The notes beneath the pieces were generated by a model. It was not told where the DNA came from and searched no databases. It saw only the letters and a list, made by a program, of their open reading frames with translations. From the IMG/VR virus record IMGVR_UViG_3300001918_000028, positions 1 to 46,278 of that record: 46,278 nt of DNA, one strand, 5' to 3'. This document shows positions 7,235-45,883 of this stretch, in pieces. The stretch comes from a virus. The first letter of the stretch is position 1. Each line of letters begins with the position of its first letter. A program made the position numbers and the translations under genes.

Positions 7235-7702
7235 GTGGCGATCAGACCAATAGAGCGCGATGACCTACCGGGTCTGAAGGCCATCATTGATGCGAACGAG
7301 TTGTTTCCCGCAGCGATGCTCGACGAGATGGCGGCCGGGTACTTCGACGGCAATTCATCCAGCGAGATGTGGCTCACGGTCGACGACGGCGGCCCTATCG
7401 CAATAGCGTATTGCGCCCCCGAGCGAATGACCCAAGGGACGTGGAACCTCCTGCTGATCGCCGTGCATCCTGTTCAGCAAGGTCAAGGAGTCGGCGCGAA
7501 GCTGACCAAGCATATCGAGTATAGCCTGGCAGCGTCTGGTGAGCGCGTTTTGCTCGTTGAGACGTCGGGTCTGCCGGAGTTCGCTCGCACCCGCTCGTTC
7601 TATCGCCGGCTTGGCTACACCGAAGAGGCGCGCATCCGAGACTTCTATCAGGCCGGCGAAGATAAGATCATTTTCCACAAGGCGCTCAATTCGCCGCAGT
7701 GA
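7235..7702 (+). CDS. GNAT family N-acetyltransferase (antisense cargo gene)
   Basis: A 155-aa protein from GTG 7235, preceded by GGAG at 7222-7225; an upstream in-frame GTG at 7190 would give 170 aa. The GNAT fold is shown by LLLIAVHPVQQGQGVGAKL, which holds the acetyl-CoA-binding Q-x-x-G-x-G/A motif, by ARTRSFYRRLGY (motif B) and by the C-terminal FYQAGEDKIIFHK. The substrate is unknown. It runs against the surrounding tail genes and lies between two imperfect copies of the DUF6950 gene start, as expected for inserted cargo. Its last codons and stop come from the phage-derived repeat. A TTGACC at 7179-7184 may be a -35 box, but no good -10 is visible. Confidence 0.85.
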   Translation: MAIRPIERDDLPGLKAIIDANELFPAAMLDEMAAGYFDGNSSSEMWLTVDDGGPIAIAYCAPERMTQGTWNLLLIAVHPVQQGQGVGAKLTKHIEYSLAASGERVLLVETSGLPEFARTRSFYRRLGYTEEARIRDFYQAGEDKIIFHKALNSPQ

Positions 7703-12074: not shown

Positions 12075-13706
12075 ATGGAAGCAGCTGAACGCACGCTTGG
12101 TCAGGTTCTCACCGACCAGATCCGGTATGAGATCCCGCCCTACCAGCGTCCCTACTCTTGGGAGGCCGGCAACGTCGAGCAATTGCTGGATGACGTATGG
12201 GAAGCCTTCCAGGCGAAGGACGAAGAGTACTTCATCAGTTCGCTGATCACGATCGAGAAGAAAAGGGCGGAGCGCTACGAGGTAGTGGACGGCCAGCAGC
12301 GCCTTACAACGCTGAATCTAATTTTCGCGCGCCTCCGCGATGCACTGGATGAGCCAGCGCGGTCGGCTCTTGGCGCAGTCGTGCTGCCGAAGAACGTGCT
12401 GACGGGCGAGGAAGAGGCGCCCCGACTGACCCTACGCGCCAAGGATCAGCCCTTCTTTCGCCGACACGTTCTCGCTGCGATCCCTCTGACCGAGGCAATC
12501 CGCAGAGAAATCGCCAAAGACCAGGACGCGCCCAAGCGTCGCCTCATCGAGAATCTGGAGGTGATTGACGCGTTCCTGGCCGGCAAAAATCAGCAAGCGC
12601 TGAGGCTATTCGCCAACTTCCTGCTGAAGAGCGTCTACGTCGTGTTCGTGACGACCACCTCCCTGCAATCCGCCCATAGGCTCTTCAACGTCCTGAACGC
12701 ACGTGGCGTGCCGCTCTCGAACGCCGACCTCATCAAGAACATGCTGTTCGGAAAGCTTACCGGGAGCGTCGACCGAAGCGCGGAACTCGATGAACGGTGG
12801 CTTGAGCTCGAAGAGACGATTGGGATCGAGCGTATGGACCAGTTCCTCGGCCACCATCGGACTGCGGTGACGGCAGCAAAAGCCCGGAAGACGCTGCAAG
12901 AAGAATACCACCCTCTCATCGCGGCAAGCTCCTCGCCATTCGAGTTTTTGGATGTGGTAACAACCTCGGCGCGGAACTACGTGCGAATCCAGCAGAATGA
13001 GTTCGATGGTGCTACTGCCCGCCGATCGCTGCGGTCACTTCACCGAGTTGAATTCGAAGAATGGGTGCCGCCGCTCCTGGCGTTTCTCAACGCCCCGGTG
13101 CCGGCCATGCAGGAGGGTGAGTTCATCGCCTTGCTGGAAAAAATCACGTATCAAAACTGGGTGCGGCGCCTCGCCTTTACAGCGCGGTTGACGGTCTACT
13201 TTCAGCTCATCAGCGCGCTGCGCACCGGAGCCCCCGCCGAGCAGGTACAAGCGATTTTCCAACAGAACGGCCGCGATGATGAGTTCCGGACACTGCTGGA
13301 CGGTGAGGTTTACGGGAAGCCGTTTGCGCAGGCACTGCTGCTGCGCATTGAGGAGGCGGACCAGGATGAGTCCGTCACCAAGGATTATGGGGGCAAGATC
13401 ACCATCGAGCATGTGCTGCCGCAGGCGCTGAAGGACGCTTACTGGCGCGAGCGCTTCTCGGACGACGCGCATCGGCAGTTCGTGCATCGGCTGGGAAACC
13501 TCGCCCTCCTCGCCGGAACAAAGAATTACCGATCCCAGTATTTCGCGTTCGACCGCAAAAAGGCGATCTATAAGGAGCGGAACAACAAGGTTTCGTTTGA
13601 TACGACCAAGCGAATTCTCGACGAACCCGAGTGGGGTGCCGACGCGATCGCCACAAGGCAGCAGGCCATGATGGAGAGCGCTCTGCGTCTCTGGAGTCTT
13701 GGCTGA
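12075..13706 (+). CDS. DUF262/DUF1524 (GmrSD-like) nuclease, probable phage defence
   Basis: A 543-aa protein. The N-terminal DUF262 (ParB/Srx-fold) domain has IPPYQRPYSWE (20-30) and the hallmark VVDGQQRLTTL (~70). The C-terminal DUF1524 HNH-type nuclease region has ITIEHVLPQ (His-x-x-Pro) and RLGNLALLAGTKNYRSQ near residue 460. GmrS and GmrD domains fused in one chain form type IV restriction enzymes that use NTP to cut modified phage DNA. Related proteins act in other defence systems. It runs against the tail operon between tail tube and chaperone genes and has lower GC, both signs of inserted cargo. ATG 12075 gives the conserved N terminus, although the RBS is weak. Confidence 0.87.
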   Translation: MEAAERTLGQVLTDQIRYEIPPYQRPYSWEAGNVEQLLDDVWEAFQAKDEEYFISSLITIEKKRAERYEVVDGQQRLTTLNLIFARLRDALDEPARSALGAVVLPKNVLTGEEEAPRLTLRAKDQPFFRRHVLAAIPLTEAIRREIAKDQDAPKRRLIENLEVIDAFLAGKNQQALRLFANFLLKSVYVVFVTTTSLQSAHRLFNVLNARGVPLSNADLIKNMLFGKLTGSVDRSAELDERWLELEETIGIERMDQFLGHHRTAVTAAKARKTLQEEYHPLIAASSSPFEFLDVVTTSARNYVRIQQNEFDGATARRSLRSLHRVEFEEWVPPLLAFLNAPVPAMQEGEFIALLEKITYQNWVRRLAFTARLTVYFQLISALRTGAPAEQVQAIFQQNGRDDEFRTLLDGEVYGKPFAQALLLRIEEADQDESVTKDYGGKITIEHVLPQALKDAYWRERFSDDAHRQFVHRLGNLALLAGTKNYRSQYFAFDRKKAIYKERNNKVSFDTTKRILDEPEWGADAIATRQQAMMESALRLWSLG

Positions 13707-22981: not shown

Positions 22982-24907
22982 TCAGCGAAGCCAGCCGCTA
23001 CGTGGCGCGAGCCAGCCCCGCGGGCGCTGGGTGTCGGATGCGGCTGGCGCAGGTGGTGGCGACTGAGGAGCGACATTCCCGGCGGTGGGAATCTCGCTCG
23101 TCCGGAGCGGAGCATCGGCGATCTGGTCCCGCAGCTGCTGCCAGAAGCGGTCGCCATATCGATCCGCACCGAGCAGCCAGAGCGCCGCACGCGCCAGCAC
23201 CGCGCAGTCCAGCGCCTCGTTCCTCTCGCGCAGCTTGGCCCATTCCTGCCGCGCGAAGCCGCGCCGATCCTTCGTCGTGCGCAGCTGCTCGGCGACCAGC
23301 TGCTTGACCCATTCGACTTCGACGCCGCGCGGCAAGTGCACCCAGCCGGGCGGCCATTCCTCAGCGTCGCCGCGGCCGAGCCAAAGGCGGCGATAGAGAT
23401 CGGCCTTCCAGGTCGAGACCGACACGGTCCACAGCTTCAGCCCGCGGCGGAGCTTCTGGCCATTGACCAGCGCATCCACCGGCGTCGGGCCCTGGACGGG
23501 CTGCACCCGGTTCCAGCCATCGATCCCCTTGGTCGGCGCGATCCGTGGATCCCGCAGGCGCCGCAGGTGGCCATAGACGGCGGCGGTGTCGCGGCCGCCG
23601 GTGTCGACGCAGAGCCGGGCAATGCGCATCGCGCCACCGCCGTGGCGGGGCCAGTCGCGCGCCAGTACCCGGGCGAGGTCGTCCCAGGGCTCGCGGTCGC
23701 GCGGGCTGCCCGGGATCACCACGTGATCGACGAGCCAGGAGGAGAAGCCCTCCGCCCAGCCCCAGACGTCGCATTCGAGGCGGTCGTCCTGGACGTCCAC
23801 GCCGGCGGTGAGCACCAGCGCACCCGCGGGCACGACCCCCATGGCGAAATCCTCGCGGCGCTCGACCAGGCGCTCCCAATCCGGCGCCTCGCCCTGCTCC
23901 TGCCAGGTCTCGCCCAGGACAGTGTTCTTGAAGGTCTTGATGTCCTCGGGCTTGCCTTGGGCTGCCTCCCAATCGCGGGCGATCTGCTCCCAGGACAGCC
24001 AGCCTACGGGCGAGTAGAGCGCCGAGATATGGAAGCCAATGGTGTGCGGATCCTGCCCCTCGGCCGTCGCGCGCCACTCGCCGCCGCCGAGCATGGCGGT
24101 CTTGTCGTGCTCCTGCATCGGGTGGTCGCAGGCGGTGCAATGATACCGCGCCGTCTCCGGCGCACCCTTCTCCCAAATCAGCCGTTCAAAGCGCAGCCAC
24201 TGCATCTCGCCGCACGCTGTGCACGGTACGAAGAAGCGCCGCTGGTCGGAGGCGAGATACTCCCGCTCAATCCGGCTGCGGCCCGCGATGGTCGGCGTGC
24301 TGACCAGGAACGCCTTGCGCCGCCAGCCGAAGGTGCGGGCGCGCGCCTCGGCCAGGGCGATCGGATCACCCTCGCCAGCGACATCGCCGGGATAGGCATC
24401 CACCTCGTCGAGGAACAGGAACCGCGCCGTCATCGAGCGCAGCCCGACCGCGCTGTTGGCGCCGGTCAGCACCAGGATGCCGCCGGGGAATTCCTTCGAC
24501 AGCATCGTGTTGCCGCTGTCGCGCGCGCGGGCTGGTGCCACGCGCTCCCGCAGCGCCGGCGTTTCCTCCAGCAGCGGGTCGATGCGCTGGCGCGAGAAGC
24601 GCTTGGCCAGTTCCACGGTCGGCTGCACCGCCAGCGCGGGCGCTGGCACATGGTGCATGATGTAGCCGAGCCAGTTGTTGCCGCTCTCCGTGGCGCCGAC
24701 CTGCGCACCCTTCATGAAGACGACGCGGCGGGCGGGATGCACCGCGGAGAGCGCGTCCATCACGTCCTTCAGGTACGGCGTGCGGCTGGTGCGCCAGGGG
24801 CCGGGTTCCGCCGAGGCGCGGCTGCCGAGCATGCGATGCCGCTCGGCCCATTCCGAGACGGTGAGTTGCGGTGGCGGCCGGAGCATCGCGCCGACGCGGC
24901 GGCGCAC
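22982..24907 (-). CDS. terL: Terminase large subunit (GpA family)
   Basis: A 641-aa protein. The N-terminal ATPase has a Walker-A-like KGAQVGATESGNNW (66-79) and Walker B FLFLDEVDAYPGD (164-175). Two CxxC pairs (CTACGEMQ and CTACDHPM, ~235-270) probably bind zinc. The C-terminal nuclease has ALVLTAGVDVQDDRLE near 365 and VDTGG near 430, matching RNase H-like metal-binding Asp residues. It cuts concatemeric DNA and pumps it into the prohead through the portal. Length and family suggest cos-type packaging, but this is not proven here. It follows TerS by 4 nt. Confidence 0.93.
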   Translation of the reverse strand: MRRRVGAMLRPPPQLTVSEWAERHRMLGSRASAEPGPWRTSRTPYLKDVMDALSAVHPARRVVFMKGAQVGATESGNNWLGYIMHHVPAPALAVQPTVELAKRFSRQRIDPLLEETPALRERVAPARARDSGNTMLSKEFPGGILVLTGANSAVGLRSMTARFLFLDEVDAYPGDVAGEGDPIALAEARARTFGWRRKAFLVSTPTIAGRSRIEREYLASDQRRFFVPCTACGEMQWLRFERLIWEKGAPETARYHCTACDHPMQEHDKTAMLGGGEWRATAEGQDPHTIGFHISALYSPVGWLSWEQIARDWEAAQGKPEDIKTFKNTVLGETWQEQGEAPDWERLVERREDFAMGVVPAGALVLTAGVDVQDDRLECDVWGWAEGFSSWLVDHVVIPGSPRDREPWDDLARVLARDWPRHGGGAMRIARLCVDTGGRDTAAVYGHLRRLRDPRIAPTKGIDGWNRVQPVQGPTPVDALVNGQKLRRGLKLWTVSVSTWKADLYRRLWLGRGDAEEWPPGWVHLPRGVEVEWVKQLVAEQLRTTKDRRGFARQEWAKLRERNEALDCAVLARAALWLLGADRYGDRFWQQLRDQIADAPLRTSEIPTAGNVAPQSPPPAPAASDTQRPRGWLAPRSGWLR

Positions 24908-27421: not shown

Positions 27422-28690
27422 CTATGATTCGGCGGTTTGGATCACACCATGATCGACGATGCTGCGGGCCGTGGCGACATCGGCAAAGATGCGATCATCA
27501 CCCTCCAGAACCGCGGCTTCGCCGGTCGTCTCCTGCCAGCGGCGCACGATGACGTCTGCATAGGCAGGGTCGATCTCCAGCAGCACAGCGCGCCGCCCCG
27601 TGCGCTCCGCCGCGATCATGGTGGTGCCCGAGCCGCCGAAGCAGTCGAGCACCGTGTCGCGCAGCTTGCTGCTGTTGCGGATGGCGCGCTCCACCAGCGC
27701 CACCGGCTTCATGGTCGGATGCAGGTCGTTGCGCGCCGGCTTGTCGAAGTGCCAGACATTCCCCTGGTCGCGCGCACCGCACCAGTAGTGCTGCGCGCCC
27801 GCCTTCCAGCCATAGAGCATCGCCTCGAATTGCTGGTGGTAGTCGGCGCGGCCGAGCGCGAAGGTGTTCTTCGCCCAGATGATGGTGCTGGACCATTTGC
27901 CGCCCGCCTCCTGCCAGACGCGATGCAGCGTCGGCCATTCCGAGGAGGACATGCAGACGTAGCAGGCGCCCTTCGTCACCGAGAGCAGGTTGGCCAGCGC
28001 GGGGCGCAGGAACTCGGGAAAGCCGCCACCGAGCGCGTCGTTGGCGATGGTCATCTTGGCGGCGGTGCCGCCCTCGTAGGCCACGTTGTAGGGCGGATCG
28101 ACGAAGCCCATGTCGGCGAGGTGGCCGGCGCCGAGGGCGCGCTGCACGTCGACCAGCTTCGTCGCGTCGCCGCAGAGAAGGCGGTGGTCGCCACAGCGCC
28201 AGAGGTCGCCGGCGCGGGTGACCGGAACCACGGGCGGTGGCGGCGCCTCGTCGGCATCATCGCCGAGGCCGGCATCGGCAGCTGCCAGCAGCCGGTCGAG
28301 CTCCATGCCGGAGAAACCGAGCACGTCGAGGTCGACCACCGCCTCGTCGCGGATGCGGGCGATCTCCGCAGCCAGCAGTGCCTCGTCCCAGCCCGAGTTC
28401 AGCGCGATCTGGTTGTCGGCCAGGCGGAGCGCACGTGCCTGCGCGGGTGAGAGGTGGCCGAGCCGCAGCACCGGTAACGTGGTGAGCCCGAGCTGCTTCG
28501 CAGCCATGACGCGGCCGTGCCCGGCGATCAGCACGCCCTCGGCGTCAACCAGGACCGGATTGACGAAGCCGAACTCGGCGATTGACGCCGCGATCTGCGC
28601 CACCTGGGACGGGGAGTGGGTCCGGGCGTTTTCCGCGTAGGGGACCAGCCCCGCCACCGGCAGGGTGGAGACAGCGAGATCAGGCAGCAT
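27422..28690 (-). CDS. ParB-like / DNA methyltransferase fusion (DPPY type)
   Basis: A 422-aa protein from ATG 28690. Residues ~8-95 form a ParB/Srx-like domain (VLIAGHGRVMAAKQLG). Residues ~160-395 form a beta-class N6-adenine/N4-cytosine methyltransferase with motif IV DPPYNV (198-203) and motif I VLDCFGGSGTTMIAA (~345-360). The target sequence is unknown. Its ATG lies within the end of the second methyltransferase gene (11-nt overlap). No restriction endonuclease is adjacent, so it is more likely a solitary phage methylase that protects phage DNA or tunes expression than half of a restriction-modification pair. Confidence 0.88.
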   Translation of the reverse strand: MLPDLAVSTLPVAGLVPYAENARTHSPSQVAQIAASIAEFGFVNPVLVDAEGVLIAGHGRVMAAKQLGLTTLPVLRLGHLSPAQARALRLADNQIALNSGWDEALLAAEIARIRDEAVVDLDVLGFSGMELDRLLAAADAGLGDDADEAPPPPVVPVTRAGDLWRCGDHRLLCGDATKLVDVQRALGAGHLADMGFVDPPYNVAYEGGTAAKMTIANDALGGGFPEFLRPALANLLSVTKGACYVCMSSSEWPTLHRVWQEAGGKWSSTIIWAKNTFALGRADYHQQFEAMLYGWKAGAQHYWCGARDQGNVWHFDKPARNDLHPTMKPVALVERAIRNSSKLRDTVLDCFGGSGTTMIAAERTGRRAVLLEIDPAYADVIVRRWQETTGEAAVLEGDDRIFADVATARSIVDHGVIQTAES

Positions 28691-30152
28691 TCGCGGTGAC
28701 CTCCTGCCTCGTTGCGGCGACCGCGTCGTAATCGCGACCGTCATCGGCCAGCGTCACCGGCATGTCCGGGTGCAGCATCCGCCACCGCGCCACGGCCAGG
28801 TCGACATAGGCCGGCGCCAGCTCGATCGCCCGCACGCGGCGACCGGTGCGCTGGCCGGCGATGATGGTGGTGCCGGCGCCGCCGAAGGGCTCAAACACCA
28901 TGTCGCCCTCGTCGGCATAGGCACGCATCAGGAAGTCCGGCAGCGCGACGGGGAACACCGCGGGATGCTCCGTCTCGATGCCGCGAGCCTTGTGCCGCGT
29001 GATGCGCAATACGTTGTCTGGGATCCGGGTCTCCTGCACGCCCTGGCCGGCATGCTGCCATTCGCCGACGGTGCCGTCCTTGGCGCGGAGGCCACCCTTC
29101 TCGGAGTTGACGTGTCCCGCCCAGCGGCAGGGGATGATCTTGTTGGGACGCCGGGCCTCGCGATTGAAGTGGAACAGAAGCTCGAAGGCGGGCGACAGCC
29201 GCCCGTTCCAATCGCCCGGCAGGCCGGGCCCCTGGTCCCAGGTGTAGAGCCCGAAGCGGCGCCAGCCGCGGGTGCGCATCCAGTCGAGCCAGCCGGCCCA
29301 ATAGGGCTGCCATTCATTGTCGCGATGGATCAGCCCGAGGTTCACCAGCACCTGGCCATCGGGCCGCATGGCCACGTCGAGATGCTGGAAGACGCCCTGC
29401 ATCAGAGCGTCCCAATCCGTGACGCCGCCGGTGGTGTAGTCCCGCTGGTTCCCGTAGGGCGGGGAGGTGAACAGCAGCGCCGCGCGGTCCTCACCCATCA
29501 CGCGCGCCACTGAGGCGGCGTCGGTGCTGTCGCCGCAGAGCAAGCGATGATCGCCCAGTAGCCAGAGATCGCCTGGACGAGTGACGGCCTGGCGCGGCGG
29601 CTCCGCATCGGCGTCGGCGGGGTCCTCCGCCGGTGCATCCTCGGTGCCTGCCGCGCCCGCCGCGCCGCCCCCCTCGGCGGGATCCGCGGACAGAGCCTCG
29701 GGCGCGTCGCCGTCGGACACGGCATCTCCAGCCGCCGCGAGGATGTCCGCGAGTTCCCCCGCCGAGAAGCCGAGTGCGCCGAGGTCGATGTCCGGCACCG
29801 CCTGCACCGCGGCCAGCGCGTCCCGGAGCATCGCCTGGTCCCAGGTCGCATTCTCCGCGATGCGGTTGTCGGCGAGGCGCAACGCCTCCTTTTGCGCCGC
29901 CGACAGGTGTCGCAGCACGATCACAGGCACCTTGGCCATGCCGAGCGCGGACGCCGCCTCGAGCCGGCCGTGGCCGGCGATCAGCACGTCGTCCTCATCG
30001 ACCAGCAGCGGGTTGGTGAAGCCGAAGGCCAGCATGCTGGCCTTGATCTGCTCCAACTGCTCGGCGCTGTGCACGCGGGCGTTGCCGGCATGTGGGCGCA
30101 GCTCCGCCACCGGACGCAGCAGGATCTTCGCCGCCATCCAGGGGAGCGTCAT
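28680..30152 (-). CDS. ParB-like / DNA methyltransferase fusion (TSPPY type)
   Basis: A 490-aa protein from ATG 30152. The N-terminal ParB-like domain (~10-100, VLIAGHGRLEAASALG) is about half identical to that of the neighbouring methyltransferase. The catalytic half has TSPPYGNQ (motif IV) and PFGGAGTTIIAGQRTG (motif I). An Ala/Pro/Asp-rich linker joins them. TSPPY suggests N4-cytosine methylation or another adenine target. The two genes appear to be an old tandem duplication with diverged catalytic centres, overlapping by 11 nt. The long 353-nt leader upstream contains two related dyads (30326-30376). Confidence 0.88.
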   Translation of the reverse strand: MTLPWMAAKILLRPVAELRPHAGNARVHSAEQLEQIKASMLAFGFTNPLLVDEDDVLIAGHGRLEAASALGMAKVPVIVLRHLSAAQKEALRLADNRIAENATWDQAMLRDALAAVQAVPDIDLGALGFSAGELADILAAAGDAVSDGDAPEALSADPAEGGGAAGAAGTEDAPAEDPADADAEPPRQAVTRPGDLWLLGDHRLLCGDSTDAASVARVMGEDRAALLFTSPPYGNQRDYTTGGVTDWDALMQGVFQHLDVAMRPDGQVLVNLGLIHRDNEWQPYWAGWLDWMRTRGWRRFGLYTWDQGPGLPGDWNGRLSPAFELLFHFNREARRPNKIIPCRWAGHVNSEKGGLRAKDGTVGEWQHAGQGVQETRIPDNVLRITRHKARGIETEHPAVFPVALPDFLMRAYADEGDMVFEPFGGAGTTIIAGQRTGRRVRAIELAPAYVDLAVARWRMLHPDMPVTLADDGRDYDAVAATRQEVTANAA

Positions 30153-30325
30153 GATGCCATCCGGTTTGCAGGTGGTTTGCAGGGCTGCGGCCCGGCGTCG
30201 GTTTGCAGCCAACGACCTGAAGCCGCGGGCGAAGGCTGCAAACCGCAACCCATGTTTTCAGCCTGGCGCTAGCGATGTCGCGCGCTTCCGCCCCCCGCAC
30301 ACAGCGGGGCCAGGAAGGAACCATC

Positions 30326-30505: not shown

Positions 30506-31054
30506 TCACGCCGCCCTCGTCCGCGGCACGAGTCCGAAGTGCCCCGCCAGCACACTGAGCGTCGCCACCAGCATTCCCTGTGCCTGCGGCGGCGCGACGG
30601 GGCGTCCGCCCCATCCCTGGCGCATCGCCCACTCCCGCACCGACATCTCCAGGCCGACGACGTGCCAGGCGCACGAGCCCGCTGCACTGTCGTGGCCGCC
30701 GAGGGCATCCAGGGCCGCCCCGATCTTGCGGCGTGCGTCCATGTGGTGGTCGGACAGGGTATCAGCCGTCTGGCCTGGCAGGCGGACCAGCACCGACTTC
30801 GACATGCCATCCAGGGCGGCGCTGCGGAACAGGGCGCGGAAGTAGCCGCCAGCGTCGTGCATCTGCTGGGTGATGGTCCCGTTCGCCAGCATCATGCCGA
30901 GCGTGTCCACGGCGCGACGATGCTGCACCGGAGTGCCCGTCTCGGGATCGGCCTCACGGATCGGGTCCGAGAAGCCGCCATGCTGGAGCCGCCACTTCGA
31001 GGGGCCCATCGCTTCCTTCTGCTTCGTGGTCTTCGCCTTCCGCTTACCGGCCAT
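30506..31054 (-). CDS. DUF6456-like phage protein
   Basis: A 182-aa protein from ATG 31054. A basic N terminus (MAGKRKAKTTKQKEAMG) is followed by GGFSDPIREADPETG and a helical C-terminal half, RRKIGAALDALGGHDSAAG and then EWAMRQGWGG, that resembles the CcrM/DnaA-associated DUF6456 pattern of alphaproteobacteria. This family assignment is tentative. The gene overlaps the 76-aa gene by 11 nt, as the phage early genes do. Confidence 0.55.
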   Translation of the reverse strand: MAGKRKAKTTKQKEAMGPSKWRLQHGGFSDPIREADPETGTPVQHRRAVDTLGMMLANGTITQQMHDAGGYFRALFRSAALDGMSKSVLVRLPGQTADTLSDHHMDARRKIGAALDALGGHDSAAGSCAWHVVGLEMSVREWAMRQGWGGRPVAPPQAQGMLVATLSVLAGHFGLVPRTRAA

Positions 31055-31274
31055 GAGTCTTCTCCTGCTGCCGTGGGCCCCAGCGGCGCACGGCTTCGTT
31101 CTGGATTGCCTGGCGCAGCCAGGGATCGGTGATGTCCTCGAGGTGCAGCGAGACAACGCCCTGCTGCTGCCAGACGCGGCGGCGCAGCATCTCCATCTCG
31201 GGCACGGTGGTTGCGCTGTGGCTTCCGCGGTCGAGGGACGAGCGAGGCGGGAAGGGCGCGCCAGGCAGGGTCAT
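31044..31274 (-). CDS. Small unknown phage protein, 76 aa
   Basis: From ATG 31274 with a strong GGGAGG ribosome-binding site 5 nt upstream. The second half (MEMLRRRVWQQQG, then DPWLRQAIQNEAVRRWG) is amphipathic and helical. No family recognised. Its 3' end overlaps the 182-aa gene by 11 nt. Upstream of it lies the iteron-like repeat region. A role in replication is suggested only by location. Confidence 0.6.
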   Translation of the reverse strand: MTLPGAPFPPRSSLDRGSHSATTVPEMEMLRRRVWQQQGVVSLHLEDITDPWLRQAIQNEAVRRWGPRQQEKTHGR

Positions 31275-31297: not shown

Positions 31298-31499
31298 TTG
31301 AAGAGTGGTGAAGAGTCGAGGGGGTGGGAGAGGTCTAACTATCTGATCAATATAACTATTCAATTCTTCAAACTCTTCAAAGGGTCTCTCTCCCCCGCAC
31401 GCCCGCCCGGACGTCTGCATACGCCCGCGTGAAAAGTTGAATTGTTGAAGAGTCCCGTTTTCTGCGGGTTTGCGCGCTTCATGCAGCATCACTCTTCAA
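31298..31499. repeat. Iteron-like TTGAAGAGT repeat cluster, candidate replication origin
   Basis: Four exact copies of the 9-mer TTGAAGAGT: 31298-31306 (+), 31372-31380 (-), 31445-31453 (+) and 31491-31499 (-). Two one-mismatch copies lie at 31308-31316 (+) and 31363-31371 (-). The first two plus-oriented copies are 10 bp apart and the two minus-oriented copies 9 bp apart. An AT-rich core (31336-31362) lies between these opposed pairs. The last copy is within the primase 3' end. Directly repeated binding sites beside an AT-rich core and a prim-pol gene are the usual form of phage and plasmid origins; a function as operator is also possible. Confidence 0.6.
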
Positions 31500-33797
31500 G
31501 CCCTCCTGCGGTTCGGTGGCGATGATCCAGCTGGTGCCCGGGCCCGACGCGTTCTGCGTGACCTCGATCGCGATCTGCTTGCTGTCGAGCAGCGTGGCGA
31601 TGGCGTCCTCCCGCTCGGCCTTCGAGAGGAACTGCGTCTTCCGGACGAAGGCGCTGCGGCTGATCCGGCCGGCCTTGCGGATGACCTCGAGGACCTTCTT
31701 GATGCGGGAATGCGCCGGCGTGTCGGCGACGAGACGCTCGGCTTCGCGCAGCAGGGTGCCGATGCAGTGCTCGACGAGCGCCGATGCCCAGGTGACGTCA
31801 CGGGCCTCGGTGATAGGCCGCGCGGGATCACGACTGACGGCGGCGATCATCGCCAGTTTGGCGGTGTTCTCTGCATATCGGCCGAAGAGCGCGGTGGCGT
31901 AGGTGCCGCGGTGCGACCGCAGGAGATCGGTGGCTTCGCGGCGGACGCGAGCCATGGTCGCCTCGGCGTCCGGGGTCAGCGGCACCGTGTAGGCATGGAT
32001 CGGCGCCGAGGATTCCATGGCATCGGCGATGTTCCCGCCGTGGCTGTGGCCGGGCACGCCGCGGGCGATCCCCTGCAGGGCGGACACCAGTGCGGGCGGC
32101 GGGTCCATCGCCGCCGGCGTCTCATTTCGCTCCGGGTAGTCGTCGTCGGTCAGGAAGACCAGGAAACGCGCAATCGAGCCATCGGCCAGCGCGCCACCCT
32201 CTAGCGCCGTCCACAGCGGGCCTGGGACGGTGACGCCCCAGATGCAGGCGCAGGGCTGCTCGATCGTGACGCGCGGCCGTGCTTTTTGATCGGCGTATTC
32301 CGCGCCGATGTAGGGCTCGGCCGCCGAGGTGTAGAGCTTCGTCAGTTCAGACCAGATCGCCGCCTTATGCGCCGGCGCGCGCTGGTTCAGGACCAGCTTC
32401 AGGAACTGGCCGAATTCGTCCACCTGGAACAGGCGGGCGGGATGCCGCTGCAGCGACGTGAGCAGCCCGGCCGAGGAGGCGAGATCCTCGCCGCCAAGGT
32501 ATCGGTCCAGGCCTGCGGCGTAGATCGCGCGCTTCGCGCAGCGCCGGGCGTGGTCCTTGCCGCCGCCGCTGTCGGCGATGCCGATGGCGTAGACGTTGCT
32601 GCGCAGATCGGTGGGCGTGCGATACCGGCGGCCAGCAATGGCGCCGACCAGGCAAATGGCGGCGCCAAGCGAGAGGAACGGCTGCGGGCTGACGGCGCTG
32701 GCCGTGGCGTAGTCCACGAACATGCGCAGCGCGCCATCCACCTGCAGCAGCTCGGGCGGGACGCGATAGGGCTTCGGCGGCGGTGCGATCGGCAGCGGCG
32801 TGACCGCGACCTTCGCCAGCAGGCCCGCCGCGGGATGCGGCTGTGCCGCCTGCTCGGCGGCAGTTCCGTTCAGCGTCAGCGCGGGATCCGGTACCCAGCC
32901 GCGCTGCTCGGCCAGCCAGTAGATTTTCCCTGCGCCGACGCTGTGCGGCCGCAGCGAGGCCCAGCGCCGCTCAGGGGTGTCTGATCGGCCCGACTGCCCC
33001 GATTTCCCAGACCGCCGTGACCAGTCGAGCCAGAGGTCGCGGCCCTCCTCACCGATCGCGGCCTTGATGGCGGCGCCGACGGTGATCCACTCGTTGCCCG
33101 GCAGGTCGTCATTCGGCAGCCAGGACAGCGCCGCGGCGATCGCGTCCCGCGTGCCCTTCGGGTCGCTGGGGCCGCGCCAGCTGCTGGTGGGCGCGTCCGC
33201 CAGGATCGAGTTGACCCGGACCTCGTCGGGCACGAGCTGCCAAGCGGCGTCCAGGAATGCCGCACATCCCGCTTCGTCGACCACCGGGAGGCGCGAGAGC
33301 GGCGTCTCCACCAGGCTGTCCTCCGGCCATTCATAAGGCCGCCCAGTGTCCGGGTGCACGGCATAGGCGACGAATTGCTGGCCGCGCGCCAGCAGCTCGA
33401 GGGGATGGCGCTTCCGGCCGGCGAAGGGCGTGGCAGCGCGATAGACCAGCAGCCGCTTCGGGGCGCGGCCGATGCGCAGGCAAGGCGTGTCGCCCAGCAT
33501 GGACGTGGCGAGCTGGGCGATCTGGATGGCCAGCGCGCCGACCAGGATGTCGATGTCGATGCCCACCACGGCGCCGGTGGCGATGCCCACGCCGCAGCCG
33601 GGCCAGCGGCGCCAGATGTCCACCTCGAAGGGCTTCGTCGGCCGATCGCAATGCCGCGTCCAGTCGGGATAGGGCGACCACTCCCCACCGGTGAAGCGGC
33701 CCGGCACCTTCGTGCCCGGCATGATGGGGATCACGGAATAGCCGTTGTCGACCAGGCGCTCGCCGTAATCGGCCATGAAGGAGGAAGCATCCGTCAT
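31479..33797 (-). CDS. Bifunctional primase-polymerase / helicase-like primase
   Basis: A 772-aa protein. The N-terminal prim-pol domain (1-165) has catalytic DID (81-83) and the GQQFVAYAVHP motif (~139-149). A PriCT-2-like domain lies at ~215-300 (WLPNDDLPGNEWITVGAA). A DUF3987-type ATPase/helicase domain (~350-740) has P-loop GIADSGGGKDHA (406-416, Lys414). It probably synthesises primers and unwinds or loads at the phage origin. ATG 33797 overlaps the HTH gene stop by 4 nt. Its 3' end contains one of the repeats of the candidate origin. Confidence 0.88.
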   Translation of the reverse strand: MTDASSFMADYGERLVDNGYSVIPIMPGTKVPGRFTGGEWSPYPDWTRHCDRPTKPFEVDIWRRWPGCGVGIATGAVVGIDIDILVGALAIQIAQLATSMLGDTPCLRIGRAPKRLLVYRAATPFAGRKRHPLELLARGQQFVAYAVHPDTGRPYEWPEDSLVETPLSRLPVVDEAGCAAFLDAAWQLVPDEVRVNSILADAPTSSWRGPSDPKGTRDAIAAALSWLPNDDLPGNEWITVGAAIKAAIGEEGRDLWLDWSRRSGKSGQSGRSDTPERRWASLRPHSVGAGKIYWLAEQRGWVPDPALTLNGTAAEQAAQPHPAAGLLAKVAVTPLPIAPPPKPYRVPPELLQVDGALRMFVDYATASAVSPQPFLSLGAAICLVGAIAGRRYRTPTDLRSNVYAIGIADSGGGKDHARRCAKRAIYAAGLDRYLGGEDLASSAGLLTSLQRHPARLFQVDEFGQFLKLVLNQRAPAHKAAIWSELTKLYTSAAEPYIGAEYADQKARPRVTIEQPCACIWGVTVPGPLWTALEGGALADGSIARFLVFLTDDDYPERNETPAAMDPPPALVSALQGIARGVPGHSHGGNIADAMESSAPIHAYTVPLTPDAEATMARVRREATDLLRSHRGTYATALFGRYAENTAKLAMIAAVSRDPARPITEARDVTWASALVEHCIGTLLREAERLVADTPAHSRIKKVLEVIRKAGRISRSAFVRKTQFLSKAEREDAIATLLDSKQIAIEVTQNASGPGTSWIIATEPQEGLKSDAA

Positions 33798-34195
33798 TCG
33801 CTGCCACGCTCCTGTGCGGCGATCGCTGCGTCGCAGGCGCGCTCCAGGCGCAGGATTTCGGGATAGAGGGCGGCCATCTGGCGGGCGGCCCGTTCGAGCG
33901 CCTGGCGCGCCCGCTCCAGCTCGGCGTGGATCCCGCGTGCCGGACCGCGAATGTCCGACGCCAGCTCGCCGACATGGTGCGCAGCCCGGGCCCAGGGCGG
34001 CTGCTTGGCGCGTGGACCATACGGTTTGCGCGGCGCAGGGGTGGCCTTGGTCGCGAGGCCGGCCTGCACCTTCTCGATGTCCCACGCGCCATTCGGCTCA
34101 CGCGCGATCCGTCCGGCGCGTTCAGCCTTCTGGATCGCGGTGTGCGAAATGCCGAGCCGGCGCGCGACCTCCCGGGCCGAGGTGACGCCACTCAT
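33794..34195 (-). CDS. HTH DNA-binding protein of the replication block
   Basis: A 133-aa protein. Residues 5-50 form an excisionase-type winged HTH (REVARRLGISHTAIQKAERAG, PNGAWDIEKVQAGL). The C-terminal ~60 residues are a long basic/acidic coiled coil (ELERARQALERAARQMAAL). The HTH resembles that of this phage's small terminase at ~80% of nucleotides. Between DUF6511 and the primase gene with 4-nt overlaps on both sides, it may bind the origin repeats and recruit the primase. That role is inference. Confidence 0.75.
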   Translation of the reverse strand: MSGVTSAREVARRLGISHTAIQKAERAGRIAREPNGAWDIEKVQAGLATKATPAPRKPYGPRAKQPPWARAAHHVGELASDIRGPARGIHAELERARQALERAARQMAALYPEILRLERACDAAIAAQERGSE

Positions 34196-44031: not shown

Positions 44032-44534
44032 CACGCGCCACCAGATCCAAAGCCGGCACCCCGCCGGCGCCGACCATCCCCGCCATCCCGCCGGCCGACG
44101 TGCTCGGCCGGCTGGCGGCGCTGAAGACCACCGCGACGTCGGACCTGAAGCAGCAATGGCGGGAGCTCTTCGCCGCCGAGCCGCCGCCCTACAATCGTCG
44201 TTTCCTGGAGAGCCGCCTGGCCTACCGGATCCAGGAACTGGCCTATGGCGGCCTGAAGCCCGAGACGATCCAGCGCCTCGAGGCCCTGGGTGAACAACTC
44301 GATGGCGGGAACCCCGTCCTCCGCCGCATCCGCGGCGACGATAAGCCGATCACCGGCACGCGGCTGATCCGCGAGTACCAGGGCGTCGAGCACAGCGTCA
44401 CCGTGCTGCACGACGGCTACGAATATCAGGGCCGCCCCTACCAGTCGCTCTCCTCCATCGCGCGCGCCATCACCGGCACGCGCTGGAATGGCTGGCTGTT
44501 CTTTGGCCTGAAGAACCGGAGGGGCACGGCATGA
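44028..44534 (+). CDS. DUF2924 protein
   Basis: A 168-aa protein. The DUF2924 core includes LKQQWRELFAAEPPPYNRRF (about 40-59), LAYRIQELAYGG and the C-terminal GYEYQGRPYQSLSSIARAITGTRWNGWLFFGL, a winged DNA-binding-like end. Function unknown, but almost always found beside a serine recombinase of this type, so probably a partner in site-specific recombination or its control. Both ends overlap neighbours in ATGA. Confidence 0.85.
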   Translation: MTRATRSKAGTPPAPTIPAIPPADVLGRLAALKTTATSDLKQQWRELFAAEPPPYNRRFLESRLAYRIQELAYGGLKPETIQRLEALGEQLDGGNPVLRRIRGDDKPITGTRLIREYQGVEHSVTVLHDGYEYQGRPYQSLSSIARAITGTRWNGWLFFGLKNRRGTA

Positions 44535-45883
44535 AGCGCAAGCCGACCGCCGACGCCGCCATGCCGGCCACCGTCAGGAAGATCCGTGCCGCGGTGTACA
44601 CGCGGAAGTCGAGCGAGGAAGGGCTCGACATGGAGTTCAACTCCCTCGACGCGCAGCGCGAGGCCTGCGAGGCCTACATCACCAGCCAGCGGTCGGAGGG
44701 CTGGGTGCTGGTCCGCGATCGCTACGACGACGGGGGCGTTTCTGGCGGGACACTGGAGCGGCCCTCGCTGCGCCGCCTGCTGGCGGACATCGAGCGTGGG
44801 CTGATCGATGTGGTGGTGGTCTACAAGATCGACCGGCTGTCGCGCGCGCTGATGGACTTCGCCAAGCTGGTGGAAGTCTTCGACGCGAACAGCGTGACCT
44901 TTGTGTCGGTGACGCAGTCCTTTAACACGACCACCAGCATGGGCCGCCTCACGCTGAACATCCTGCTCAGCTTCGCGCAGTTCGAGCGCGAGGTCATTGG
45001 CGAGCGCATCCGGGACAAGGTGGCCGCGTCTCGGGCGCGCGGGATCTGGATGGGCGGCTTCGTGCCGCTCGGCTACGACGCGCGGGATCGCAAGCTGCTG
45101 GTGAATGAGGCGGAAGCGGCGCTGGTGCGGCGCATCTTCGAGGGCTTCGTCGAAACGGAATCCGGCACGAAGCTGGTCCAGGCACTGCGCGCCGAGGGCG
45201 CCACCACGAAGCGCGGCCGCGCTTTCACCAAGAGCGACGTGTATCGGGTGCTGAGCAACCGCACCTATCTCGCCGAGGCGATGCACAAGGGGAAGTCGCA
45301 TCCCGGCGAGCATGCTGCCATCGTGCCCCAGGCGATGTGGGATGCGGCGCACGCCCTGCTGGCGATCAGCCCGAAGACCCGCGCCAACCGCACCCGCCGC
45401 CAGACGCCTTCGCTGCTGCGCGGGCTGATCTTCGGGAGCGACGGGCGCGCCATGTCGCCGACCCATGCGCGGGGGCGCCGCGGGCAGCAGTACCGCTACT
45501 ATGTCAGCCAGTCGGTGCTGAAGGGCAGCGCCGAGGACGGGCCGGCCATCGCGCGCATTTCGGCCGCGGAAATCGAGGGCGCGGTCATCGCTCAGGTCCG
45601 GGGGCTGCTGCGCCAGCCGGAGGTGGTGCTGGGCGCCTGGCGCGCGGCGCGGGCCTCGGCGCCGGACATGACGGAGGACGAGGCCCGGCTGGCGCTGGAG
45701 CGGCTGGACCCGCTGTGGGAGGAGCTATTCCCCGCGGAGCAGGCGCGCATCATCCGCCTGCTGGTCGACCGAGTGGACATCGGGGTGGGCGGCGCCGACG
45801 TGCGGCTGAAGCTGGAAGGGCTGGCCAGCCTGGCACGGGACCTGGCGGCGCCAGCCACTGAACCGGCGAGCGCCGCAGCATGA
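44531..45883 (+). CDS. Large serine recombinase (phage integrase)
   Basis: A 450-aa protein. N-terminal resolvase domain with catalytic Ser27 in YTRKSSEEG, DDGGVSGGTLERP and KIDRLSRALMDF; a recombinase domain (~180-290) and a C-terminal region with FGSDGRAMSPTHARGRRGQQYRYYV, where the zinc-ribbon normally has four Cys but here has none. Joins attP and attB during integration; with a directionality factor it excises the prophage. Shorter C-terminal coiled-coil than classical phiC31-type. ATGA overlaps on both sides. Confidence 0.92.
   Translation: MKRKPTADAAMPATVRKIRAAVYTRKSSEEGLDMEFNSLDAQREACEAYITSQRSEGWVLVRDRYDDGGVSGGTLERPSLRRLLADIERGLIDVVVVYKIDRLSRALMDFAKLVEVFDANSVTFVSVTQSFNTTTSMGRLTLNILLSFAQFEREVIGERIRDKVAASRARGIWMGGFVPLGYDARDRKLLVNEAEAALVRRIFEGFVETESGTKLVQALRAEGATTKRGRAFTKSDVYRVLSNRTYLAEAMHKGKSHPGEHAAIVPQAMWDAAHALLAISPKTRANRTRRQTPSLLRGLIFGSDGRAMSPTHARGRRGQQYRYYVSQSVLKGSAEDGPAIARISAAEIEGAVIAQVRGLLRQPEVVLGAWRAARASAPDMTEDEARLALERLDPLWEELFPAEQARIIRLLVDRVDIGVGGADVRLKLEGLASLARDLAAPATEPASAAA

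Follow-up and report, generated by a model that had tools for sequence, protein, structure and literature searches.

Which function is served by a cluster of short repeats at the 3' end of a phage primase gene, and which protein reads these repeats? The cluster lies in an IMG/VR virus record (IMGVR_UViG_3300001918_000028), analysed over its whole length of 46,278 nucleotides and referred to here as the window. Its genes include those for terminase, capsid, tail and tape measure and for a large serine recombinase (44531-45883, + strand), which is probably the integrase. The repeats very probably serve as origin of replication in a temperate phage that infects Roseomonas-like bacteria.

A search for TTGAAGAGT revealed four exact copies (31298-31306, +; 31372-31380, -; 31445-31453, +; 31491-31499, -) and three copies with one mismatch (31308-31316, +; 31355-31363, -; 31363-31371, -). 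The whole window contains nine copies with at most one mismatch, compared with 2.3 expected and a maximum of seven in 100 shuffles, and seven of these nine fall within the 202 bp from 31298 to 31499. When this region alone was shuffled 300 times, at most five related 9-mers were obtained, whereas the region itself holds eight. A chance origin of the cluster is very unlikely because of both the window-wide and the local excess, which confirmed the existence of the repeats described in the initial annotation. Their four exact copies and their extent of 202 bp also stood. However, the count of six did not: taking the repeat unit as 8 bp, the region contains nine units, since TGAAAAGT (31430-31437) and TGAATTGT (31438-31445) fill out a triple on the left.

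Read along the primase strand, the site starts with an iteron in the last primase codons and continues with an inverted triple, a GC-rich spacer, a direct triple, an AT-rich stretch and an inverted outer pair. The outer left iteron (TTGAAGAGT; 31491..31499, -) lies within the stop-proximal codons of the 772 aa primase (31479..33797, -), so that the Prim-Pol gene, earlier described as lying beside the repeats, directly adjoins them and includes their outermost unit. The left, inverted array (31430..31453, +) comprises the three 8-bp iterons TGAAAAGT, TGAATTGT and TGAAGAGT with a period of 8 bp and has the same position in relatives. About 50 bp separate it from the right, direct array (31355..31380, -), whose iterons TGAAGAGT, TGAAGAAT and TGAATAGT follow each other at 9 and 8 bp. 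The spacer between the opposed arrays (31382..31429) has a GC content of 76% and holds a GGGGGAGAGAGACCC motif on the - strand, which is largely conserved across the Acetobacteraceae family. A stretch of 37 bp with 24% GC (31335..31371; TTGAAGAATTGAATAGTTATATTGATCAGATAGTTAG on the - strand) is a candidate unwinding element; it overlaps and flanks the direct triple and is therefore not the centre of the site. The outer right pair consists of TTGAAGAGT and GTGAAGAGT (31298..31316, +), and a 76-aa ORF (31044..31274, -) lies just downstream. Thus, the proposed opposed pairs around an AT-rich core proved to be opposed, but they are triples with additional outer units, and the DNA between them is GC-rich. 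Several short direct repeats beside an AT-rich element, as in iteron-type origins, are present here as nine 8-bp units and 37 bp at 24% GC. The GC skew, suggested earlier as a check, showed no clear turn at 31.4 kb and was uninformative.

Searches with the primase revealed close relatives in 78 viral and 37 genome loci, the latter mostly from Acetobacteraceae, e.g. Roseomonas, Roseococcus, Humitalea, Belnapia and Falsiroseomonas. A blastn search for the same DNA in known phages gave no match. In the Acetobacteraceae phages and prophages the layout directly 3' of the primase is kept, whereas the repeat sequence is replaced. We called the iteron types by eye, ahead of the protein comparison, and named them in the direction of the direct array: A (TTGAAGAG, the window), B (TTGATGAA/TTGACGTA), C (TTGAATTA and TTGAAGTA), D (TTCGGTTA), E (AATAACAA), F (TTGAACAAA) and G (TTGAGGAA), plus one divergent locus (L111). 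The expectation that related prophages carry the same 9-mer beside the primase therefore held only among loci of one iteron type; in the others, a different unit takes the place of the 9-mer in the same layout. An AT-rich stretch, often ATATATCA..TTAG-like, comes after the direct array in many relatives. Type B loci show a further peculiarity, as their first iteron provides the TGA stop codon of the primase (e.g. L014, around 7310-7330). Three MAG contigs labelled Opitutaceae, Phreatobacter and Methylocystis (L087, L091 and L116, respectively) carry Roseomonas-type phage primases with 74-89% identity and are possibly mis-binned.

To find the protein that tracks the iteron type, we compared the proteins of the window against all loci. 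Among the neighbouring proteins compared, only the C-terminal ~90 residues of the primase follow the iteron type throughout. The iteron type is not reflected in the primase up to about residue 680, nor in the RadD-like helicase, DUF6511, the Cas4-like nuclease, the methylases, the 76-aa ORF or a 182-aa protein; in type E, the middle part of the primase has diverged too. Individual alignments with the window primase, divided into three parts, showed identities of 97, 94 and 55% from the first to the last part for a type B primase (L014), and of 96, 94 and 43% for a type C primase (L017). Among 83 primases, the iteron types require 15 changes on the backbone tree and seven on the C-terminal tree, seven being the minimum for eight labels; these are quick trees with C and c merged and few columns for the C-terminus, and the typing by eye affects the numbers of changes but not the tree shapes. 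For pairs with backbones at least 95% identical, which are not independent of each other, C-terminal identity averaged 96.8% for the 145 pairs of the same type and 37.6% for the 72 pairs of different types. Co-variation is clean in the Acetobacteraceae family, whereas automatic typing was too noisy for a clean test in the second clade, the relatives of L111.

The same picture is obtained at the DNA level. Identity to phages of other iteron types drops to about 45-66% over the C-terminal coding part and the repeats, and is regained at 95-98% around 31197, in the 76-aa ORF, in five loci (L013, L014, L057, L017 and L063). In these profiles, one edge of the exchanged cassette falls near the boundary of the ATPase and the C-terminal domain (~31.7 kb). 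The other follows closely after the last iteron, at ~31.2 kb, where loci of different iteron types become similar again in the 76-aa ORF. One locus (L020) is still different past the site, and the cassette edges therefore vary. Another (L028) carries the same cassette, 89-93% identical, on a backbone of 79-85% identity. Roseococcus suduntuyensis DSM 19979 (L082) has a cassette almost identical to that of the window.

Domain searches with the window primase detected PF09250 (Prim-Pol) and PF08707 (PriCT_2) above the cut-off and gave no helicase match; its relatives match DUF3987. P-loop residues of a putative ATPase module are present, with a Walker A motif (GGGKD) whose K414 is invariant in the alignment. 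A search of solved structures with the primase sequence revealed no clear relative. The AlphaFold2 model of the C-terminal ~82 residues (691-772; 31482..31727, -), the proposed iteron-reading domain, supports a predicted winged helix with three helices and a two-strand wing, and its pLDDT exceeds 90 in much of the core. A structural search with this model retrieved generic winged-helix proteins with weak scores (best E-value 5e-3), so that the fold is supported and no family is assigned. The full-length protein was modelled poorly (mean pLDDT 62.5), also in its ATPase part, and the nearest folds of this model, MCM/ORC at low confidence, are at most a hint of such a resemblance. A QF(L/V)-like stretch at the recognition helix is common to the iteron types that have a TTGA half-site, and types D and E are without both, which suggests that the half-site may be tied to this stretch.

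The joint change of repeat sequence and primase tail points to the primase itself as the origin-recognising protein. We consider it highly likely that the site is a replication origin, that the primase is its initiator and binds the iterons by its C-terminal winged helix, and that both are swapped as one cassette. Recognition of the putative origin by the predicted winged helix is supported by the sequence comparisons, and the earlier proposal of an origin or initiator-binding site is in line with the conserved layout and co-variation in relatives. The winged helix would bind the 8-bp iterons, three per opposed array and the outer units, and thereby bring together several copies of the primase/ATPase. 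Opening would then occur in the AT-rich DNA next to the direct array, with unwinding by the P-loop ATPase module followed by priming by the Prim-Pol domain. We infer unwinding and priming from the domain content and from the precedents of P4 alpha, pRN1 and SaPI/PICI, and binding and use as an origin are proposed in the same conditional sense. By trading winged helix and iterons as one cassette of ~450 bp, phages would alter origin specificity and leave the enzyme unchanged. A different initiator had been suggested initially, the 133-aa HTH protein encoded upstream (33794-34195). We rejected this candidate because many relatives that share the iterons do not encode it and because it does not track the iteron type. 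It resembles small-terminase-type HTH proteins (phrog_57).

Since the C-terminal coding part adjoins the iterons, simple linkage may account for some of the co-variation, and a recombination hot spot could exchange both, contiguous as they are in the DNA, even if the C-terminus did not read the repeats. Linkage as the whole explanation is, however, quite unlikely: none of the type changes that the backbone tree requires separates the C-terminus from the iterons, the breakpoints lie near the boundary of ATPase and winged helix and immediately beyond the last iteron, and the 76-aa ORF, although equally adjacent, is left behind in most exchanges. We regard it as unlikely, too, that the arms act as a DNA hairpin, i.e. 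a stem-loop origin of the kind suggested for pRN1 and Bordetella phage BIP-1, in which pairing matters instead of the repeat sequence. The mutually inverted arrays, with arms of ~24 bp and ~50 bp between them, do resemble the pRN1 stem-loop (21-nt stem, 58-nt loop; PMC4234260). A stem does not need the 8/9-bp repetition of units within one arm, though; the spacings of 8-8 in the left and 9-8 in the right arm make their pairing imperfect, and folding of the window site as DNA was unremarkable (z-score only -1.8). The fold computed for a type B locus (L014; z -0.2) began past its left array and is therefore no test of the stem.

Two further readings concern other uses of DNA-binding sites. Intergenic repeats near an HTH protein of small-terminase type might be a packaging (cos/pac) site bound by the small terminase. 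This is extremely unlikely, as cos sites adjoin terminase genes, whereas the gene for the terminase large subunit lies at 22982-24907, more than 6 kb away; moreover, the repeats follow the primase C-terminus, and many relatives are without the 133-aa protein. An operator or attenuator of the downstream genes, used for autoregulation by the primase winged helix or by another regulator, would fit the position of the site ahead of the co-oriented 76-aa ORF and methylase genes and the co-variation with a DNA-binding domain. This reading is very unlikely: the site lies 3' of the gene for the co-varying protein, its iterons and AT-rich DNA are typical of origins, and promoter and terminator scans revealed nothing at the repeats. 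The single, weak terminator site lies outside them and an Rfam search for known RNAs at the repeats gave no match, which speaks against the alternative raised initially that the repeats are terminators. An operator role could exist in addition to origin function.

Some other genes of the window deserve mention. A GmrSD-type restriction endonuclease gene with both domains (12075-13706, +; lower GC, 0.59-0.61) lies on the opposite strand within the tail-gene region and is probable cargo. The same applies to the gene of a 562-aa protein with a dCMP/MafB19-like deaminase domain (1-1689, +), which lies in low-GC DNA (0.52) at the edge of the window and possibly has a defence or toxin-like role. Two adjacent, overlapping genes encoding fusions of ParB_N with an N6/N4 DNA methylase (27422-28744, - and 28680-30248, -) are located between the putative origin and the terminase.

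To analyse the wider occurrence of the layout, five more viral scans were included, which gave 179 distinct loci in total. Tandem 8/9-bp repeats on both strands 3' of the primase were found in 126 of these loci, compared with 1, 4 and 9 loci in shuffled sets; shuffling was by single bases and some automatic matches are simple AT or GC repeats, so part of this excess may reflect local composition. Unmistakable layouts are present in L303 (TTGAGGGAT), L302, L307, L305 and L193, and clear ones in two distant named phages, Synechococcus phage Yong-M3-232 and Rhizobium phage RHph_TM3_3_14B. Among other phages with distant primases, the layout is not clear in Sinorhizobium phage NV1.1.1, and inspection of Pseudomonas phage 73 and Pseudoalteromonas phage H40/1 by eye did not reveal it. 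Such repeats are absent from a Sulfitobacter plasmid in which Prim-Pol and DUF3987 are encoded by separate genes. We put forward a tentative general reading: in Prim-Pol phages of a broad group, the C-terminal ~90 residues of the primase and an origin of inverted 8-bp iterons could form a self-contained specificity cassette, repeatedly swapped at the domain boundary, in which a conserved recognition helix would read the TTGA half-site and a variable wing the rest; the pRN1 and BPP-1 stem-loop origins might then be inverted iteron arrays. The proposed primase-read origin offers a rule for finding origins in many unannotated prophages, namely opposed 8/9-bp arrays directly 3' of the primase, and a natural set of matched winged-helix/iteron pairs for studies of DNA recognition.

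Among known systems, the pRN1 ORF904/BPP-1 group has Prim-Pol and helical/PriCT_2 domains, a P-loop ATPase/helicase domain of superfamily 3 and a C-terminal winged helix (PMC4234260); the window primase has the first two, carries the P-loop residues of a putative ATPase and is predicted to have the winged helix. The origin region of this group likewise lies directly 3' of the gene as a poorly conserved island between conserved DNA (PMC4234260). Its published origin is a stem-loop without iterons (PMC4234260), whereas the window arms are tandem 8-bp iterons. The pRN1 paper left origin recognition open ("not yet identified sequence motifs"; PMC4234260), and the present proposal is a testable answer to how Prim-Pol replication proteins locate origins. 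BPP-1 (L124, about 310-420) carries an exact inverted repeat of ~20 bp, composed of two 9-bp units (TTTGCCTCG), at around 26.6-26.7 kb and ~400-500 nt beyond the 3' end of its primase gene. The repeat scoring did not single out BPP-1. The inverted repeat may be the BPP-1 origin instead of the published stem-loop.

Phage P4 alpha differs from the window primase, a Prim-Pol, in that its primase is of the Toprim (DnaG) type; P4 iterons also differ in sequence and arrangement. P4 alpha combines primase, helicase and a C-terminal winged-helix DNA-binding domain in one protein, which binds origin repeats, and pRN1 ORF904, with its origin just 3' of the gene, shares the C-terminal winged helix (PMC4234260). 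In PICIs, the origin is found 3' of rep, where AT-rich DNA is flanked by two iteron sets (PMC6092414), and the C-terminal domain of Cch2 binds iterons just downstream of its gene (PMC7581432). The window thus shares with the SaPI/PICI pri-rep-ori modules two iteron sets just 3' of the initiator gene and a C-terminal domain as (proposed) reader. However, those elements are satellites that lack a full set of virion genes, whereas genes for terminase, capsid, tail tube, tape measure and further tail proteins are present in the window; there, AT-rich DNA flanks one array, the inter-array DNA is GC-rich, and the primase is a Prim-Pol with a putative DUF3987-type ATPase. In the RepA/ori system of PLE, the DNA-binding domain of the initiator and the iterons also co-vary and are swapped as a module, with cognate pairing proven (PMC8263062); there, the domain is an N-terminal RepA_N, the iterons are ~30 bp long and the proteins are unrelated. 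The frequent exchange observed here may reflect selection on origin specificity, e.g. by incompatibility between co-resident prophages or by origin-directed interference as shown for PLE (PMC8263062). A literature search that covered few subscription journals found no paper on this layout or exchange for these phages. While a module of initiator domain and iterons is known in principle from P4, SaPI/PICI and PLE, the opposed 8-bp arrays with repeated winged-helix exchange in Prim-Pol phages appear to be new, as does the possible rereading of stem-loop origins.
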